Positions 10,450 through 57,185 of a stretch of 57,185 nt of DNA are shown piece after piece. The stretch lies in contig JAMCXX010000004.1 in assembly GCA_023474425.1 (NCBI GenBank), forward strand, positions 1 to 57,185. Reading direction: 5' to 3'. The position numbers were made by a program, and so were the translations under genes. The stretch is from Patescibacteria group bacterium (GTDB lineage Bacteria > Patescibacteriota > WWE3 > JAMCXX01). The notes beneath the pieces were generated by a model that made no database searches, was not told the origin of the DNA, and saw only the letters and a list, made by a program, of their open reading frames with translations. Numbering within the stretch: the first letter of the stretch is position 1; each line of letters starts with the position of its first letter.

Positions 10450-11836
10450 AACCATTCGGCCTTTCCTTATGCCACTCAGTTGATTGTTCATAATGGTAAG
10501 CCACCCGCAAAACCAATTCCTCCGAAAGCTTGGGACCTATTAGGTCTAAACCCACCGGCATTCCTTCACTAAAACCACACGGGACGGAAATACCTGCCAG
10601 ACCGGCAATGGAACTCGGCTCCACCAAAACGTCCGCCATTTCCCCAAACATTGACTGCCCCCGGCTTACTCCCACCGGCAACGCTATCGTCGGCGAAACC
10701 GGGCCAGCTATGAGGTCGACTTCGGAAAAAGCCCGGTTAAAATCATTAATAATTAAAGTCCTTACTTTTTCCGCCGTTTTGTAGTAGGCGTCATAGTATC
10801 CGGCCGAAAGGGCGTAAGTTCCTAGCATAATCCGCCTTTTGGCCTCCGGACCAAACGCTTCGCGCCCTTCTCCATACCGTATTCCGTCATATCTGGCCAA
10901 GTTACTGGAAACCTCACTACGTTGAATAATAGTGTAAACGGCAATGGAATATTTGGGATCCAGTAGGGAAATCTCTTTAACCAAGCAACCCAGCGTCTCC
11001 AGTTGCTTTACAGCCTCCATAACCTTTTGGGAAACTCCGTTTTCTACCCCTTCAAAATATTCCTTCGGCACTCCAATTTTTAATCCGCCGACGGAATCAT
11101 TGAGCCGGGCGGTATAATCGGGAACTTCGTCCGGCAAAGACGTGGCGTCATAAACATCGTGGCCGGCTAAAATGCTTAAGAGAAATGCCGCATCCCAAAC
11201 TGTTTTGGTAATCGGGCCGGGGCTGTCGGTGGACGAAGCCATAGCCACAATTCCGTAGCGCGAAACACGCCCGTAACTGGGCTTAAACCCAACCACCCCG
11301 CACCAGCCGGCAGGCTGGCGAATGGAACCGGCCGTTTCCGTGCCCACCGCCGCCAAGCACAAGTCGGCGGCTACGGCCGCCGCCGACCCGCCGGAGGATC
11401 CGCCCGGCAAACGCGTCAAATCCCAGGGATTTAAGGTCGGACCAAAGTCCGATGTTTCCGTGGACGAGCCGTGGGCCCAGGCGTCCATATTAGTTTTCCC
11501 CAACAAAAACGCCCCGGCTCTAATTAGCTTTTCCGCGATCGTGGCGTTGTATTGAGGTTTATAATCCTTCAAAACGCTGGAAGATGCGGTTGTTTTAAAA
11601 TCTTTGGTGAGAATGTTGTCCTTTAGAGCTAGAGGTAAGTCCTTTAATACCGAGTCACTACGCGGTTCAATACTGTTAATTTCGTCTAAGCTTACTGAAC
11701 TTAAATAAGCACGAACTTTAGAATCTCTTTGCGAAATGGCCGCAAGGCAGTCCACCACAACATCTCGGCCGCTAAATTCTCCATTGGTTATTCCTTCCAA
11801 TGCCTCTTTTAGTGTAAGATTATTAAGACCCGTCAT
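10448..11836 (-). CDS. gatA: Asp-tRNA(Asn)/Glu-tRNA(Gln) amidotransferase subunit A
   Basis: A 462-residue amidase-signature enzyme that releases ammonia from glutamine and passes it to GatB. The catalytic triad is intact and correctly spaced: K72 (LALKDNI), cis-Ser S147 (PGGSSGGSAAA) and nucleophile S171 (GTETAGSIRQPA). The length is typical of the family, slightly short. Its ATG overlaps the gatC stop by 4 bases. The stop codon lies inside a palindromic repeat, so the very C-terminus (HKERPNG) may have been set by the repeat. With gatB and gatC it forms the full trimer; presence of GatCAB usually means GlnRS and/or AsnRS is missing. Confidence 0.95.
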   Translation of the reverse strand: MTGLNNLTLKEALEGITNGEFSGRDVVVDCLAAISQRDSKVRAYLSSVSLDEINSIEPRSDSVLKDLPLALKDNILTKDFKTTASSSVLKDYKPQYNATIAEKLIRAGAFLLGKTNMDAWAHGSSTETSDFGPTLNPWDLTRLPGGSSGGSAAAVAADLCLAAVGTETAGSIRQPAGWCGVVGFKPSYGRVSRYGIVAMASSTDSPGPITKTVWDAAFLLSILAGHDVYDATSLPDEVPDYTARLNDSVGGLKIGVPKEYFEGVENGVSQKVMEAVKQLETLGCLVKEISLLDPKYSIAVYTIIQRSEVSSNLARYDGIRYGEGREAFGPEAKRRIMLGTYALSAGYYDAYYKTAEKVRTLIINDFNRAFSEVDLIAGPVSPTIALPVGVSRGQSMFGEMADVLVEPSSIAGLAGISVPCGFSEGMPVGLDLIGPKLSEELVLRVAYHYEQSTEWHKERPNG

Positions 11837-12534: not shown

Positions 12535-12633
12535 GGGCGCAGTGTTGGTTTTGCAGCGAGCGTTGAGGGGGAGCCGTCAGTCCGCAGACTGAGGGAGGAC
12601 TCCTTGAGCGAGTCGCAAAACTGACACGAGCCC
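12535..12633. repeat. Structured palindromic element, copy A
   Basis: Spacer between htpX and the HEPN-like gene. Outer helix: GGGC, GTGT and GTTTTGC on the left pair with GCAAAAC, ACAC and GCCC on the right. Inner helix: CCGTCAGTC with GACTGAGGG (one mismatch). Between them lie conserved strands AGCGAGCGTTGAGG and TTGAGCGAGTC plus a short GGAG/CTCC pairing. Copies B (37988-38073) and C (55937-56022) share the conserved strands but have different, still complementary helices. Confidence 0.85.
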
Positions 12634-12637
12634 GACT

Positions 12638-13540
12638 TTACATTGATCTAAGTATCTTTATTCTCTCCTCCAGCGGCGGGTGAGTGTCAAAAAGCCCGGC
12701 AAACCATCCGCTCAAATTCTTGCCCTTAAAGGGATTAACAATGTAGAGGTGGGCCGTGGCTTTGTTGGCCACGGAAAGCGGGCGGCTGTCACCTTTAAGC
12801 TTTTCTAATGCCGAGGCTAAACCTTCGGGAAACCTGGTTACCAAAACCCCGTCGGCGTCGGCCAAAAGCTCCCTTTTGCGGGAAACGGCCAACTGGATTA
12901 GTGTAGCAAAAAGCGGTGAAAGCAGGGCTAAAACCACGGCAATTAAAAAGATGACTGCGCCCGCCTGACCCTCCTCGCGGTCATCGCGCCTTCGACCGCC
13001 CCACCAAAGCGACTGCAGAAACCAATCCGAAAGCAGAGTAATCATACCCGCTAACACCGCCACCAAAGCCATATACCGTACATCGTAATTTTTAATGTGG
13101 GAAAGCTCGTGCGCCGTTACACCCTCAAGTTCAACCCGATCTAGCCTTTCCACAATACCCGAAGTGTAGCAAACCACGGCGTGCTGCGGGTCGCGGCCGG
13201 TAGCAAAGGCATTCATAGCCGGGTCGTTAATCATAAAAACACGGGGCTTGGGCAGACCGGCGCCAATGGCTACCGCCTCCACCAAATTATGTAAAGTGGG
13301 ATTCTCCAGTGGCAAAACCTCCCGCGCGCCCGACACTGCCAGCACAATCTTATCGCTGTAATAAAAGCTTCCCAGCGAGGCCAAAACCGAGAAAACAAAG
13401 GCAAAGATTATTAAACCCTGGCCGTAGCCGAAAACATAACCAAAAACGTAACCCAAAGCGGTAATCAAAAAAATAAAAACTGCTACGAGCAAAATACTTT
13501 TCCGCTTATTTTCGGCAATTTCTCTATAAATTGTTGGCAT
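12638..13540 (-). CDS. htpX: Membrane zinc metalloprotease HtpX (M48)
   Basis: A 300-residue inner-membrane protease for quality control of membrane proteins. From the ATG at 13540 (MPTIYREIAENKRKS) there are two N-terminal membrane segments (about 15-60), then the catalytic helix VTAHELSHIKN with the HExxH zinc motif, two more membrane segments around a Gly/Arg-rich loop (WWGGRRRDDREEGQ), and RKRELLADADG supplying the third ligand Glu. The C-terminal THPPLEERIKIL matches the family. It lies downstream of lemA, a common pairing, but the two are separated by about 200 bases of palindromic repeat. Confidence 0.93.
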   Translation of the reverse strand: MPTIYREIAENKRKSILLVAVFIFLITALGYVFGYVFGYGQGLIIFAFVFSVLASLGSFYYSDKIVLAVSGAREVLPLENPTLHNLVEAVAIGAGLPKPRVFMINDPAMNAFATGRDPQHAVVCYTSGIVERLDRVELEGVTAHELSHIKNYDVRYMALVAVLAGMITLLSDWFLQSLWWGGRRRDDREEGQAGAVIFLIAVVLALLSPLFATLIQLAVSRKRELLADADGVLVTRFPEGLASALEKLKGDSRPLSVANKATAHLYIVNPFKGKNLSGWFAGLFDTHPPLEERIKILRSM

Positions 13541-13598
13541 ACTTAAATTGAATTTCCACCACGAACACCACCCACAAATTATCACGAAACCTGAAGTC

Positions 13599-17707: not shown

Positions 17708-17933
17708 AACTCGGGATACCTAGATGGTCTTTGAGCATCTGAAGTTGTAAAATCAAATCGGCTGTAATGTAATGGCGGAGACCAATTTTAACAGCAGTAA
17801 TAAGCGGGATGTGGGGGTCGAGTAGATACTGTTTGATATACTCGCCCTGGCTAAATAGGTCCGAGCCAATTACGTTATCCGGCTCCATATGAGAACGGTT
17901 TTGGCGCGGTTCAAAATCTCCCCTTAAAATCAA
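17673..17933 (-). CDS. Unknown protein, paralogue of the fragment at 19107-19346
   Basis: About 86 residues from a TTG at 17933; an ATG at 17888 is an alternative start, and the frame stays open a further 9 or so codons upstream to a stop. The body reads SDLFSQGEYIKQYLLDPHIPLITAVKIGLRHYITADLILQLQMLKDHL. I do not recognise the family. A related sequence, about 1.45 kb away on the same strand, shares LFSQxEYIKQYLLDP, IKIGLRxYIT and LILQL, which argues that it is or was coding. No membrane segment or catalytic motif is evident. It overlaps the 3' end of the S51 gene by 35 bases on the other strand. Confidence 0.55.
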   Translation of the reverse strand: MILRGDFEPRQNRSHMEPDNVIGSDLFSQGEYIKQYLLDPHIPLITAVKIGLRHYITADLILQLQMLKDHLGIPSFKDLRLYNPRL

Positions 17934-18019: not shown

Positions 18020-19006
18020 TCAAGCGACTGCAGCTTCATTAAATTCCAATGAGAGTTGATCAGCGTCCATGGCTACATTCAAACCAATTGGCATAGGAAT
18101 ATCCACCGTTTTATGGCCAAAATCAACTGCTCCGATAATCGGGAATTTAAAATCTTTCAATACTTCCATAGCTATTTCTTTTGGTGAAGGTTCTTCGAGT
18201 CCTTCCCAAGACGTTCTTTTTACATCTGGTAATTTTCCGATTAACATTCCAGAAATTACCCCTAATATTCCAGAATACTTTAATTGATATAACCCTTTTT
18301 CAATTCTGTAAGATGATGTATTGTCAATTTCCCAAAACAAAATCCTTCCTTTTAATTCTTCTGGTTGTGGGAAATATTCTGTTCCAACCAGAGAAGATAA
18401 TATGCTTAAATTTCCACCGAATAATCTGCCACTAGCTTTTCCTACTCGCCAACACTCCCATTTGGTTAATGGTTGTATTTGACCCAAAGGAGTAGTTGAG
18501 GTGAGGATATTGAATAACAATCTTTTACCTTCTTCTTTTTTTTCTGGCAAAAACTGCTCCCAAACTCTTCCTAAGCTATAAGTTAAGAGTGGCCCGTGAA
18601 AACCAATAAGACCAGTTTTGGTGTGTAAGGCACAATGAATATTAGTAATATCGCTAAATCCGATAAACGGTTTCGGATTTGCTTTTACAGCTTCATAATC
18701 TATGTGTTCCAACGTGGCGATAGCTGATTGGCCTCCTTCATGAACAATGATTGCTTTCACCTCAGGGTCAATGAACATTGTGTTGATGTCACTTGCTCTT
18801 TCTTCTGGAGTTCCTGCAAACCACCACTTAGTTCGCTTGAGATTTTTTGCCTCTTTTGTTTTAAATCCGAGACTTTCAAGCTCGTTTACGCCCTTACGAT
18901 ACTGGTTAAAATAATCACTGTTTTGATCGGTGGGAAAGGGAAAAGAAGTTGCGACGACTCCAATTGTGTCACCACTAATAAGCCGGTTTGGTTTAAGTAT
19001 ATTCAT
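18020..19006 (-). CDS. S66-family LD-carboxypeptidase / MccF-like serine peptidase
   Basis: A 328-residue protein. The nucleophile is in FIGFSDITNIHCAL, followed by GLIGFHGPLLTY, the GGNLSILSSLVGTEYFP segment, ILFWEIDNTSSY with the catalytic-site Glu, and VDFGHK with the His, giving the Ser-Glu-His arrangement of S66. Relatives either trim LD-tetrapeptides in peptidoglycan recycling or, as MccF, cleave microcin C-type nucleotide-peptide antibiotics. The length and the WE-D pattern resemble the MccF branch, but I cannot assign the substrate. It sits between the two copies of the unknown gene and is AT-rich. Confidence 0.87.
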   Translation of the reverse strand: MNILKPNRLISGDTIGVVATSFPFPTDQNSDYFNQYRKGVNELESLGFKTKEAKNLKRTKWWFAGTPEERASDINTMFIDPEVKAIIVHEGGQSAIATLEHIDYEAVKANPKPFIGFSDITNIHCALHTKTGLIGFHGPLLTYSLGRVWEQFLPEKKEEGKRLLFNILTSTTPLGQIQPLTKWECWRVGKASGRLFGGNLSILSSLVGTEYFPQPEELKGRILFWEIDNTSSYRIEKGLYQLKYSGILGVISGMLIGKLPDVKRTSWEGLEEPSPKEIAMEVLKDFKFPIIGAVDFGHKTVDIPMPIGLNVAMDADQLSLEFNEAAVA

Positions 19007-19106: not shown

Positions 19107-19346
19107 TTACCACTTTTTGCCGTCTTTTCTATATTTGCCGAAAACTTCAAAAAATAGAAATGGGTTAACTTTCTCCAAGTAGCCTTTAAAAACAGTAAGT
19201 TGTAAAATCAACTCAGACTGATCTGTAATGTAATATCGAAGACCGATTTTAATTTTAGAGATTAGAGATAAATCGGGATCGAGTAGATACTGTTTGATAT
19301 ACTCGTCCTGGCTAAATAGGTTTGAGCTGAGTACCGTCCCAAGCTC
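19107..19346 (-). pseudogene. Degenerate second copy of the 17673-17933 gene
   Basis: An open frame on the minus strand translates to LSSNLFSQDEYIKQYLLDPDLSLISKIKIGLRYYITDQ...LILQLTVFKGYLEK, clearly related to the intact copy, with the nucleotide block around 19280-19320 almost identical to 17820-17860. I find no ATG/GTG/TTG start in a good position at the 5' end and the C-terminus diverges, so it is probably a remnant. It fills most of the spacer 19007-19366; the rest of that spacer shows nothing recognisable. Confidence 0.6.
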
Positions 19347-19366
19347 TAATTGAATGAAAAGTTGTT

Positions 19367-37375: not shown

Positions 37376-37621
37376 ATGTACGAAGATATTAACGAGCCCA
37401 TAGAAGTTGCCACACATTTCAAGGGTGGTCGGGCAAGTCCTCTTGCCTTCCGCTGGCAGCACCTATTCTTTAAGGTCAGCCGAGTCAACCTTTATCATAA
37501 ATTCCGCATCGGCCGGGATGTTATTCACGCTTACTCGGTTTCCACTGACCAAGGAGGAACGTTCAAGATTTCTTTTGATCCTAATCTGCTCACATGGCGA
37601 CTGAACCAAATTTACAACTGA
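37376..37621 (+). CDS. Small DUF6504-like protein upstream of dinB
   Basis: An 81-residue protein. Sequence SPLAFRWQHLFFKVSRVNLYHKFRIGRDVIHAYSVSTDQGGTFKISFDP (region 21-70) resembles the small beta proteins with an F-x-W-x-x-x-x-y motif that stand before Y-family polymerases in many bacteria. The exact role is unknown; the fixed position argues for a link to translesion synthesis. It overlaps the dinB-like start by 28 bases in another frame. Confidence 0.75.
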   Translation: MYEDINEPIEVATHFKGGRASPLAFRWQHLFFKVSRVNLYHKFRIGRDVIHAYSVSTDQGGTFKISFDPNLLTWRLNQIYN

Positions 37622-38928
37622 AGTCCCACGAATTTAATTGTTCCCCTTCAAACGTCATGCACATTGATTTGAATAGCTGCTTTGCTTCAATAGAGCAGCA
37701 GGCCAATCCAACGCTTCGCGGCATTCCTACCGTCGTGGCCGCCTACCCCACCGGCGGTGGCTGTGTGCTGGCGGCCAGCATTGAAGCCAAAAAACTGGGT
37801 ATAAAAACAGGCTGGCGTGTCAGGGACGCACAAAAAGTCTGCCCGCAAGTAGCCGTTCTTATCCCAGACCCGGCCAAATACCGCCACGTCCACAAAGAAA
37901 TGATGAAAATATTCGAAGCCTACTGCGGCAATGTTACCCCCAAAAGCATTGACGAGGCTGTTCTCACATTTGGAAAGCCCGAGCGGAGGGCATGGTTTGC
38001 AGCGAACGTTGAGGGGGAGCCGTCAGTATTCGGTCTGACGGAGGACTCCTTGAGTGAGTCGCAAACTATGCCCGAGCTCGGAAACATAGGAAAACAAATC
38101 AAAAAAGACATTAAGGAAAAAATTGGGGAATGGCTTACTGTTAGCATCGGCATAGGACCAAACAGGTTTATGGCCAAAACGGCCGCCGGACTTCAAAAAC
38201 CCGACGGTCTCGAAGAAATAAACTTTATGAACGTGGATAGAATATTTAGCGGCCTGAAGGTTGAGGACCTTTGTGGCATTAATGTTGCCCTTAAGTCCCG
38301 CCTCAATGCTGCCGGAATTTATTCGGCTTTAGAATTCCTCAACGCTAACCGCTACACGCTAAACGCTGTTTTTCGCTCCATCTCTTCCTACCACTGGTAC
38401 ATGCGTTTAAGAGGGTTCGAAGTTGACAACTGGTCTACGGAGAGAAAAAGCATTGGGCATTCCTATGCTTTGCCCAAAGCCACAAACGACGAAAGAGAGC
38501 TCGGTAAAATACTTTTTAGGCTTTGCGAAAAGGTCGGTCTGCGCTTACGCAATAATAACCTGGAAGCCCAAGGAGTTTACCTTTTCTGCTCCTACAAGGG
38601 TAGAACCTGTTTTCACAAAAGTCATAAACTTCACCAGAAGATATTTACCACCCCGGAAATCTACCAACAGGGTTTGCGGATTTTGAGCGAGAGTCTCAAG
38701 ATGGTTAACTCTATTGGAACCCTCGCCGTCGGGGTTTTTGACCTATCTCAATCCCTATACCAACAACAAACCTTCTTCGAAGACCAAGACAAAAAAAGGC
38801 ACCTAGCCCAAACGCTAGACAAGATTAATAACAAGTACGGTAATTTTTCTGTGTCTTTCGGCACCACTTTTGGCCTGTCCAAGAAAATCCTGGACCGCAT
38901 TGCCTTCGGCGGAATTAGAGATATGTAA
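37594..38928 (+). CDS. dinB: Y-family DNA polymerase (DinB-like) with translated palindromic insert
   Basis: A 444-residue translesion polymerase. Catalytic residues are intact: D25 in MHIDLNSCFASIEQQ, and D120-E121 in KSIDEAV; SIGIGPNRFMAKTA gives the fingers/palm motif, followed by a thumb with helix-hairpin-helix and a little-finger domain (FCSYKGRT...). Between SIDEAVLTFGKP (to residue 129) and GNIGKQIKKDIKE (from 163) lies an extra segment of about 32 residues, ERRAWFAANVEGEPSV...SESQTMPE, that relatives lack. It coincides with the palindromic element at 37988-38073. It falls in a surface loop after a palm strand, so activity may be kept. No interruption of the frame. Confidence 0.9.
   Translation: MATEPNLQLKSHEFNCSPSNVMHIDLNSCFASIEQQANPTLRGIPTVVAAYPTGGGCVLAASIEAKKLGIKTGWRVRDAQKVCPQVAVLIPDPAKYRHVHKEMMKIFEAYCGNVTPKSIDEAVLTFGKPERRAWFAANVEGEPSVFGLTEDSLSESQTMPELGNIGKQIKKDIKEKIGEWLTVSIGIGPNRFMAKTAAGLQKPDGLEEINFMNVDRIFSGLKVEDLCGINVALKSRLNAAGIYSALEFLNANRYTLNAVFRSISSYHWYMRLRGFEVDNWSTERKSIGHSYALPKATNDERELGKILFRLCEKVGLRLRNNNLEAQGVYLFCSYKGRTCFHKSHKLHQKIFTTPEIYQQGLRILSESLKMVNSIGTLAVGVFDLSQSLYQQQTFFEDQDKKRHLAQTLDKINNKYGNFSVSFGTTFGLSKKILDRIAFGGIRDM
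37988..38073. repeat. Structured palindromic element, copy B (inside dinB)
   Basis: Outer arms GGGCATGGTTTGC (37988-38000) and GCAAACTATGCCC (38061-38073) pair 12 of 13. Inner arms CCGTCAG (38020-38026) and CTGACGG (38035-38041) pair fully. Between them are AGCGAACGTTGAGG and TTGAGTGAGTC. A direct repeat CCCGAGC flanks the element (37978-37984 and 38071-38077), which could be a target duplication or part of the element. Confidence 0.88.
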
Positions 38929-54791: not shown

Positions 54792-55859
54792 TTAAATCCC
54801 CTTACCGGCCCGAAGGTAGGCGGGGATGTCGAAGCGGTCGCCAGAAGCGGAATCGGGAAATGTTTCCGGAACACTCTCATCTTTAATGCGGCCGGTTTGA
54901 CGACGTCGGGAGTCAAAGCCGGTGGCCACCACCGTAATCTTAATACTGTCCGAAAGCGACTCGTCAATGGCCGCGCCAAAAATAATATTGGCTTCGCTAT
55001 CCGCCGCGTCGCTGACCACTCTGGCCGCTTCGTCCACCTCGTTCATGGTCAAATCTTTGCCGCCGGTCACATTAAAAAGAATCCCTTTGGCGCCGTCAAT
55101 AGTAACTTCCAAAAGCGGAGAAGAAATAGCCTGCTTGGCCGCGACCAGTGCCCGGTCCTCCCCCGAAGCCGTCCCCACACCCATTAGGGCCGAACCGGCA
55201 TCGGTCATAATCGTTTTAACATCGGCAAAATCAACGTTCACCAAACCGGGCAAAATAATTAAATCAGAAATCCCCTGCACTCCTTGGGATAAAACTGAAT
55301 CGGCCAGATCGAAGGCCTCTAAAATCGTCATCTTTTTGTCCACAATTTCCAGTAACCTTTGGTTGGGAATAGTAATGAGAGCATCCACCTCGCCGCGCAG
55401 GGCTTCGGCTCCGTCCTGCGCCACCAGGGAGCGCTTGTTGCCTTCAAACGAGAAAGGTTTGGTGACCACGCCAATGGTCAGGGCGCCCAGGCTCTTGGCG
55501 ATTTTAGCCACAATGGGGCTTGCGCCGGTGCCTGTGCCGCCGCCAAGTCCGGCCGTCAAAAAAACCATATCCGAGCCGGCCACGGCCGCCTTTATTTTTT
55601 CCGCCGACTCCTCGGCCGCCTTGCGTCCGATTTCGGGATTGGCGCCGCTGCCCAAACCCTTAGTTAAATCCTCTCCAATTTGAACTTTGGTCGGACAGGC
55701 TGAATTGTCCAACGCCTGTTTATCGGTATTAATTCCCACAAAATCCACTCCTGAAATTACGTTGCGGGCTACCATGGAGGAAACGGCGTTGCAGCCGCCG
55801 CCGCCAATCCCCACCACCTTGATCCGGGCAAATTTTTCCACTTCCGGTTTAATCAGCAT
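54792..55859 (-). CDS. ftsZ: Cell division protein FtsZ
   Basis: A 355-residue tubulin homologue. The ATG at 55859 ([26 protein letters not shown]) is chosen over a GTG at 55883. The GTP-binding site includes GGGGCN and the signature [28 protein letters not shown] and the T7 synergy loop are conserved. The short tail ends in [12 protein letters not shown], keeping the conserved C-terminal FtsA-binding peptide. It polymerises into the Z ring. It follows ftsA with a 168-base spacer that contains palindromic copy C. Confidence 0.96.
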
Positions 55860-55936
55860 ATTAGTTGAACCAATACCACACACTTAACTGCCAACTGACA
55901 GGTTTCCTACATAGACTACCACAGATAAAGGCGAGA

Positions 55937-56022
55937 GGTAAGGCTCACAGCGAGCGTTGAGGAGGTACCGTCAAATCTACGACTTTGACGGGGGACACCT
56001 TGAGCGAGTCGTGAGACTTACC
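55937..56022. repeat. Structured palindromic element, copy C (ftsA-ftsZ spacer)
   Basis: Outer arms GGTAAGGCTCAC (55937-55948) and GTGAGACTTACC (56011-56022) pair 11 of 12. Inner arms CCGTCAAA and TTTGACGG pair fully. Internal strands AGCGAGCGTTGAGG and TTGAGCGAGTC are as in copies A and B, and the GGT/ACC pair replaces GGA/TCC of A and B, keeping complementarity. It lies between ftsA and ftsZ, so their shared transcript would carry it. Confidence 0.88.
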
Positions 56023-56051: not shown

Positions 56052-57185
56052 TTAGGGCAGGAAAGATTTAAACCAACCTAGGGCGCGGCTAAAAGGACTG
56101 GCCAAACCTCCGCGACCCAAAAAACCAAAGGAGCTCACAGGCTGAGCCTTAGAACCATAGATAACTAAACCCACCGAACCGCTGTAGGCCGGGCCCACAA
56201 TTTCGTCAATTAAACCGGTTACGCCGGTTGGAGCCCCGAGTCTGACCGGCATTTTTAAAACCGACCGGGCTACCTCCGCCGCCCCCCGGGTTTCACTACC
56301 GCCGCCGGTCAAAACTAAACCGCCGGCCACCTTGCCCAAAAGTCCGCTTTTCTTTACTTCGGCTCCCACCAAACTAAAAATTTCCGAAAGACGCACACGG
56401 ACAATTTCCTCTAAATTTTTACGGGAAACCGATTCCGTGGCCCCATCGGCTCCCAAACCGGGTATCGTTATCTCTTCGCCGTTTTCCTCACGAGACATCT
56501 GCGAAAGTTTTATCTTTGCTTTCTCGGCCGTCTCGATAGATGTTCTTAAACCAATGGCCAAATCATTAGTAATATTTTGGCCGCCGATGGGCAATACCGA
56601 GCTATAATAAGGACTACCACCTTCAAAAATGCAGATTTTGGTGGTACCGGCGCCCACATCCACCAAAACCGTGCCCAATTCCTTTTCCGTATCGGTTAAA
56701 ACACTTTGGGAGGCGGCGATACCAGAAAACACCAGGTCGCTCACATCTACTCCTACCTGGGCGACGCATTTGGTAAGATTGCGCAAAGAAGTGGCTGAAC
56801 CGTAAATAATGTTGGTTTCCACCTCCAAGCGGATGCCGCTCATGCCTACCGGATTTTTAACGCCCTCCTGGCTGTCAACAATAAAATCTCGGGGAATCAC
56901 ATGAATTATTTCCTGTGAGGTGGGAATGGAAATAGCCTGGGCGGCCTCGGTGGCCCGGGCTACGTCCTCCTCGCTGATTTCCCCATCGGAACTGGAAACA
57001 GCCACCACCCCCTTGGAATTAAGCGAGCTTATGTGTGAACCGTCCACACCAATAAAAGCACTGGTTACCGCATAGCCGGCCATGCGTTCGCTGGCCTCGA
57101 GGCTTTGGGAAATGGCCGCCACGGCCTGGTCAATGTCAACCACAACTCCTTTTTTTATTCCCTTGGAAGGGGTGGAAGAAACGCC
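56052..57185 (-). CDS. ftsA: Cell division protein FtsA, 5' end outside the window
   Basis: The frame is open to the window edge with KGIKKGVVVDIDQAVAAI at the upstream side, the typical early FtsA segment, so the GTG at 57143 is not the start and the gene is truncated. Seen parts: SHISSLNSKGVVAVSS, GTVLVDVGAGTTKICIFEGG (phosphate-binding ATPase motif), LPIGGQNITNDLAIGL and GGLVLTGGGSETRGAAEVARSVLKMPVRLG (residue regions). The C-terminal ALGWFKSFLP is the amphipathic membrane-targeting helix. It anchors FtsZ to the membrane. Confidence 0.94.
   Translation of the reverse strand, partial: GVSSTPSKGIKKGVVVDIDQAVAAISQSLEASERMAGYAVTSAFIGVDGSHISSLNSKGVVAVSSSDGEISEEDVARATEAAQAISIPTSQEIIHVIPRDFIVDSQEGVKNPVGMSGIRLEVETNIIYGSATSLRNLTKCVAQVGVDVSDLVFSGIAASQSVLTDTEKELGTVLVDVGAGTTKICIFEGGSPYYSSVLPIGGQNITNDLAIGLRTSIETAEKAKIKLSQMSREENGEEITIPGLGADGATESVSRKNLEEIVRVRLSEIFSLVGAEVKKSGLLGKVAGGLVLTGGGSETRGAAEVARSVLKMPVRLGAPTGVTGLIDEIVGPAYSGSVGLVIYGSKAQPVSSFGFLGRGGLASPFSRALGWFKSFLP

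Follow-up and report, generated by a model that had tools for sequence, protein, structure and literature searches.

Rickettsia palindromic elements (RPEs) are about 150 bp long; in R. conorii they were reported 44 times within genes, where they encode a conserved peptide. REP/BIME sequences, which are moved by the Y1 transposases TnpA-REP (RAYT), are oriented with respect to replication, in line with transposition of a single strand into the template of the lagging strand (PMC6006769). Here we describe a hairpin present in three copies in the window, by which we mean the whole stretch of 57,185 nucleotides analysed from a Patescibacteria group bacterium. This hairpin and the RPEs are both short palindromic interspersed elements found between genes and also in frame inside a conserved gene (compare PMC10969869, which cites Ogata et al. 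2000 and 2002). The difference is that one of six copies is intragenic here, and that no conserved peptide was found, since the length of the tip differs modulo 3 between copies and the frame of the 3' half changes with it.

With REP/BIME sequences the element shares the dispersion of hairpins, the internal mismatches or bulges and the replication-tied orientation, but it is about three times longer. In the left flanks read, no GTAG/GTGG tetranucleotide was found 0-2 nt 5' of the hairpin, and the Y1 transposase (Y1_Tnp, PF01797) had no match in the own genome, which is 84% complete. Y1_Tnp is present in 24 of 45 genomes of the class; the RAYT loci of these 24 relatives were considered as a source and rejected, as they carry other, near-perfect palindromes without similarity to the element. 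Like MITEs, the element is short, dispersed and non-coding and forms a hairpin through inverted repeats; no autonomous partner sharing terminal inverted repeats was found. Integron attC sites, which are active as single-stranded DNA, also have variable arms around a conserved fold. However, the present element has no GTTRRRY / RYYYAAC boxes at its ends and forms no array, and its conserved part lies inside the rod and not at the base. Identity with attC, judged from the ends read, and with an intrinsic terminator was rejected as not fitting; no terminator was found at copy e1.

Because the element lacks both the tag and the transposase of REP sequences as well as the conserved peptide of RPEs, we class it no further than as a new family of MITE-like palindromic repeats. 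As a kind it is ordinary; its unusual traits are a strict orientation and a core that is conserved while the arms vary freely and still pair. We consider it probable that this is a small palindromic DNA element that is mobile but non-autonomous, resembles MITEs and RPEs and is private to its lineage, with the folded strand as its presumed functional unit.

Rod fold and covariation of its helices

The original prediction placed a structured element at 12535-12633, 37988-38073 and 55937-56022. All three copies are present and share one long-rod fold:

12542-12627, + strand: hairpin proper of copy e1 (MFE -56 kcal/mol, z = -7.3 against shuffles; 100 bits with covariance model R1); arms 12542-12554 / 12615-12627, core strands 12555-12568 / 12602-12614; intergenic, antisense to both neighbour genes
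37988-38073, + strand: hairpin of copy e2 (MFE -63 kcal/mol, z = -7.8; R1 103.6 bits); arms 37988-38000 / 38061-38073, core strands 38001-38014 / 38048-38060
55937-56022, + strand: hairpin of copy e3 (MFE -46 kcal/mol, z = -5.6; R1 104.1 bits); arms 55937-55948 / 56011-56022, core strands 55949-55962 / 55998-56010

The base of the rod is a short helix formed by the flanks, in which there is a GCGA/CGAGC step, followed towards the tip by a variable arm of 12-14 bp with a mid-arm G.A or G-Y step. Then comes the conserved core, AGCGARCGTTGAGG / CCTTGAGYGAGTC, which contains tandem G.A mismatches and one bulged G, and beyond it a short helix GGA/TCC and a variable rod tip; the rod ends read GCGAGGG...ACCCGAGC. 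The internal strands quoted in the prediction, AGCGARCGTTGAGG and TTGAGYGAGTC, are exact, and within the window both the 14-nt first strand and the second strand have exact matches at these three copies only. The outer arms are complementary as claimed but longer than quoted, their full sequences being GTGTTGGTTTTGC/GCAAAACTGACAC, GGGCATGGTTTGC/GCAAACTATGCCC and GGTAAGGCTCAC/GTGAGACTTACC in the three window copies. Folding is better for the top strand than for its complement in 5/5 intact copies, with RNA and DNA energies alike; G-U pairs are conserved and the tandem G.A mismatches persist across copies.

The outer arms, the inner arm and the short third helix had all been predicted to covary, and they do so. 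As a description of n = 5 intact copies whose fold was derived from the same sequences, two-sided changes occur in 17-18 of 37 pairs and amount to 31-32 cells against 10.6-10.7 in shuffles, a number that 0/500 shuffles reach; despite n = 5, the effect is so large that little doubt remains. Shifting the register by 1-3 columns lowers pairing from 92% to 33-47%, a slide of one column being enough to halve it. The change of the third helix from GGA/TCC to GGT/ACC was likewise borne out: columns 39-41 pair with 81-83 in 5/5 copies (A-U, U-A, G-U), with one compensatory change among the five intact copies.

Compensatory change had been taken to mean selection on structure. A constraint on the folded single strand is indeed the simplest reading of the covarying helices; selection is not a necessary conclusion, since template-switch repair or arm renewal could also keep the arms complementary. 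It is thus conceivable, although we think it unlikely, that the arms were acquired anew at each insertion and not inherited, whether the core went into the tips of hairpins already there, the site was copied in inverted form, or template switching corrected one arm to the complement of the other; in that case complementarity would arise without selection on structure. Palindromes are well known to mutate by template switching. Moreover, arm identity between copies (5-15 of 26 positions, 19-58%) is far below that of the core strands (36-42 of 44, 82-95%), even though 61 of 65 arm cells are paired (58 Watson-Crick, 3 G-U). Arms renewed at each site, however, would fit poorly with a common length of 12-14 bp, the recurrent mid-arm G.A or G-Y step and the outer GGG..CCC end. 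Some copies also share arm positions as descent predicts (15/26 in e1/e2, 15/26 in L001/L006, and the arms that e3 has in common with the decayed copy at C2:265k), the mismatches of the core have not been corrected, and the comparison of dinB genes shows that neither the core nor the arms of the hairpin belong to the host gene.

Copies in the genome and wider distribution

The genome of the window comprises 681 kb in 5 contigs. The count of three copies holds for the window, but the genome has at least six, five intact and one decayed, dispersed over three contigs. Three of them, including the decayed one, lie outside the window, where further copies had been predicted, and were found with covariance model R1, which was applied to the own genome and 424 other Patescibacteria:

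C4:12.5k, C4:38.0k and C4:55.9k, + strand: the copies of the window (pattern and covariance-model searches)
C2:10.9k, + strand: intact copy (pattern and covariance-model searches)
C3:13.3k, - strand: intact copy (pattern and covariance-model searches)
C2:265.4k, - strand: decayed copy (29 bits with the covariance model)

The five intact copies score 79-105 bits. No two of them are near-identical, which is unusual for an active element and counts against mobility.

The suggested spread over other CPR genomes was not borne out: the covariance model finds no copy in the 424 other Patescibacteria, that is, all 44 other members of the class and a sample of the phylum, searched with stricter filters by which weak relatives may be missed. 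Loose and exact patterns run over 84,980 species genomes gave no match at first and then two chance matches only (L028 and L029, 14 bits or less). Viral contigs scanned with the core patterns gave none, and plasmids no match to e1. Rfam has no credible match at gathering and permissive thresholds, in agreement with the view that no named family has this pattern. Three more rods of the own genome (C2:14.5k, 38.8k and 187k) have the same kind of ends and diverged cores. The covariance model gives no match on them, and their grouping with the family is based on the shared ends and the leader described below.

The insertion in dinB and the CACAGAT leader

Copy e2 lies inside a gene, with a short direct repeat around it:

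37594-38928, + strand: gene of a dinB-type Y-family polymerase (Pfam IMS, 2.2e-34, and IMS_C)
37977-37984, + strand: GCCCGAGC on the left side of e2; these 8 nt occur again at 38070-38077, 93 nt (31 codons) away

The copy interrupts this gene in frame, past the catalytic SIDEA motif. From SIDEA to the next conserved IK there are 48 residues here versus 22 in most of the about 25 class homologues that cover this loop, and the extra residues are the hairpin read through in frame. Since homologues in the class have no insert, the whole hairpin, arms included, is foreign to dinB. The catalytic motif and the C-terminal domain of the product remain despite the insertion. The repeat of GCCCGAGC around e2 could be a target duplication or, in part, the element end, judging from its letters: CCCGAG is also the conserved right end of the element, and the direct repeat (CGAG or GCCCGAGC) is only partly repeated at other copies. 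A likeness between the element-coded NVEGEPS and the NLEGxPS of homologues was discarded as chance, as TFGKP to the left of the insert already aligns there.

Some copies are directly preceded by a leader of CACAGAT units:

55872-55928, + strand: leader upstream of e3, AATACCACACAC...ACAGGTTTCCTACATAGACTACCACAGATAA, 77% identical over 57 nt to the leader of the C3 copy

The leader of e3 is common to the copy at C3:13.3k and other places in the genome. Besides e3 and the C3 copy, such a leader directly precedes the decayed C2 copy and the 14.5k, 38.8k and 187k rods, and three copies of the element have none. Leader and arms hardly differ between the rods at C2:14.5k and 38.8k; therefore leader and rod were copied as one unit, and recently. 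These two units, at C2:14456 and C2:38825 (L167, L166), read GACGGGTGGCAAAGGCGGAGGG...GCCTTTGGCAGGACCCGTC, and one holds a nested palindrome, CCTGCCTGCCGCAGGCAGG. The third, at C2:187045-187153 (L120/L156), has another core and lies between jag and dnaN beside the skew flip, so it is probably near the origin of replication.

The leader is also common in viral contigs from many sources, as a palindromic repeat with two ends (CCACAGAT..CACAGAT...CACAGAT / inverted), which in L179, L194, L199 and L207 encloses a rod between its two leader ends. These palindromes, an example of prokaryotic MITEs with terminal inverted repeats, and the present elements have the leader in common, whereas here leader and rod occur without an inverted right-hand leader and their rods are unrelated in sequence. 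The present case is thus one instance of a broader pattern in which rods are carried by or lie beside CACAGAT-type palindromic repeats.

Related arrangements were seen on the way. Two viral contigs from different samples (L187:4446-10581 and L215:178-6313) have inverted CACAGAT leaders about 6.1 kb apart that enclose structural-looking genes, and the same contigs hold other leader repeats. The own genome has a complete two-ended CACAGAT/CACGGAT palindromic repeat at C2:102219-102252 (L168/L169) with a nested CTTGCCTGCGGCAAGCAGG palindrome, and at C4:197908 (L086) a CATTCCGGG...CCCGGAATC hairpin whose loop contains a CCTGCCTGCGCAGTCAGG palindrome; such nesting of one palindrome in another is recurrent here.

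Orientation to replication and origin of the element

Except for e2, the copies are intergenic (M48 peptidase/hypothetical, ftsA/ftsZ, dnaX/recR, sensor kinase/HlyD, xerC/ftsB). The annotated neighbours in the window are:

12638-13585, - strand: M48 peptidase gene, neighbour of e1 (Pfam Peptidase_M48)
54792-55883, - strand: ftsZ, downstream neighbour of e3 (Pfam Tubulin/FtsZ_C)
56052-57143, - strand: ftsA, upstream neighbour of e3 (Pfam FtsA)

The sites ftsA/ftsZ, dnaX/recR, xerC/ftsB and kinase/HlyD are in or between ordinary operons, as is jag/dnaN, the site of a more distant rod. Elsewhere in the window, a 131-nt direct repeat (17762-17892 and 19223-19353), 75% identical and 1461 nt apart, surrounds an ORF at 18020-19006, and ARAGORN calls a tRNA-Thr at 11306-11394 (- strand) inside a 462-aa ORF, probably a false call because Rfam gives it no support.

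GC skew was measured on stretches around the copies and on sampled stretches of the genome. The top strand of the element lies on the negative-skew (C-rich) strand in 6/6 copies, in 9/9 when the related rods are included and in 12/12 when three leader-only copies are added (two-sided sign test, 0.03, 0.004 and 0.0005, respectively), the replichore polarity of contigs C3 and C4 being taken from GC skew alone:

C2:24.4k, C2:264.4k and C3:53.3k: leader-only copies

On C2 the skew changes sign near 180 kb, by yidC-jag-dnaN, as expected of an origin. The top strand is itself G-rich (34-41 G versus 23-26 C), and therefore composition would predict the opposite of the orientation seen. By analogy with IS608-type elements, uniform orientation fits single-strand transposition at replication forks (PMC6006769); it is also compatible with the more stable hairpin being lost preferentially where it lies on the template of the lagging strand.

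A structured RNA, either cis-regulatory or a small RNA family, kept at each locus by selection on RNA structure, would explain a conserved core with free but paired arms. The covariation pattern is typical of such RNAs, the G-U pairs favour one strand, and the core is 82-95% identical among otherwise saturated copies. Nevertheless, we regard this explanation as improbable. The dinB and kinase/HlyD copies are in the sense of the genes, while those at the M48 gene (e1), between ftsA and ftsZ (e3, antisense to both) and at dnaX/recR are antisense, and such a mixture argues against a cis-regulatory RNA. In addition, a reading frame contains one of the copies, all copies are oriented according to replication, and Rfam offers no match. 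Judged by its context, the element looks like a mobile palindrome and not like a dedicated family of RNAs.

A chromosomal site acting as an orientation-specific DNA hairpin in replication, segregation or repair would account for the uniform orientation and for neighbours such as dinB, ftsA/ftsZ, dnaX/recR and xerC/ftsB (dnaN for the distant rod), but it is very improbable given only six copies in 681 kb and none in the 44 other class genomes, one copy that interrupts a gene and one that has decayed, and two related rods beside transporter or channel genes.

We favour a mobile element because of the insertion in dinB, the random orientation to genes, the uniform orientation to replication and the shared leader. 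The copies, their fold and covariation, the insertion in dinB, the uniform orientation and the recent copying of a related unit are what the data show; mobility of the core-sharing family itself, a single-strand intermediate and recognition of the core are what we infer. The element would move, or persist, at replication forks in the form of a folded single strand, and a protein may recognise the core with its tandem G.A mismatches, one bulge and UUGA/UUGA. The arms would need only to pair, and so may have drifted with compensation between old source lineages that coexisted, the element being presumably old in the lineage. An enzyme acting in trans might be encoded in the missing 16% of the genome, have been lost or belong to another family. 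That several copies lie next to genes for replication, repair or division might reflect a function and not chance, and it counts against a mobile element. Far more speculatively, an element may be at work that keeps its folded core and renews or freely rewrites its arms, its transposition or retention being dependent on shape and not on end sequence, and that inserts in one fork orientation with no Y1 transposase.

If the mobile-element explanation is true, this would be a natural mobile hairpin in which the shape is conserved and the sequence of the ends is not, hosted by a tiny, probably symbiotic genome of a kind thought to be poor in selfish DNA. Its diverged and still-paired copies would be useful substrates for asking what recognises such hairpins. 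Furthermore, palindromic insertions in conserved genes, best known from Rickettsia, would then occur also in Patescibacteria.
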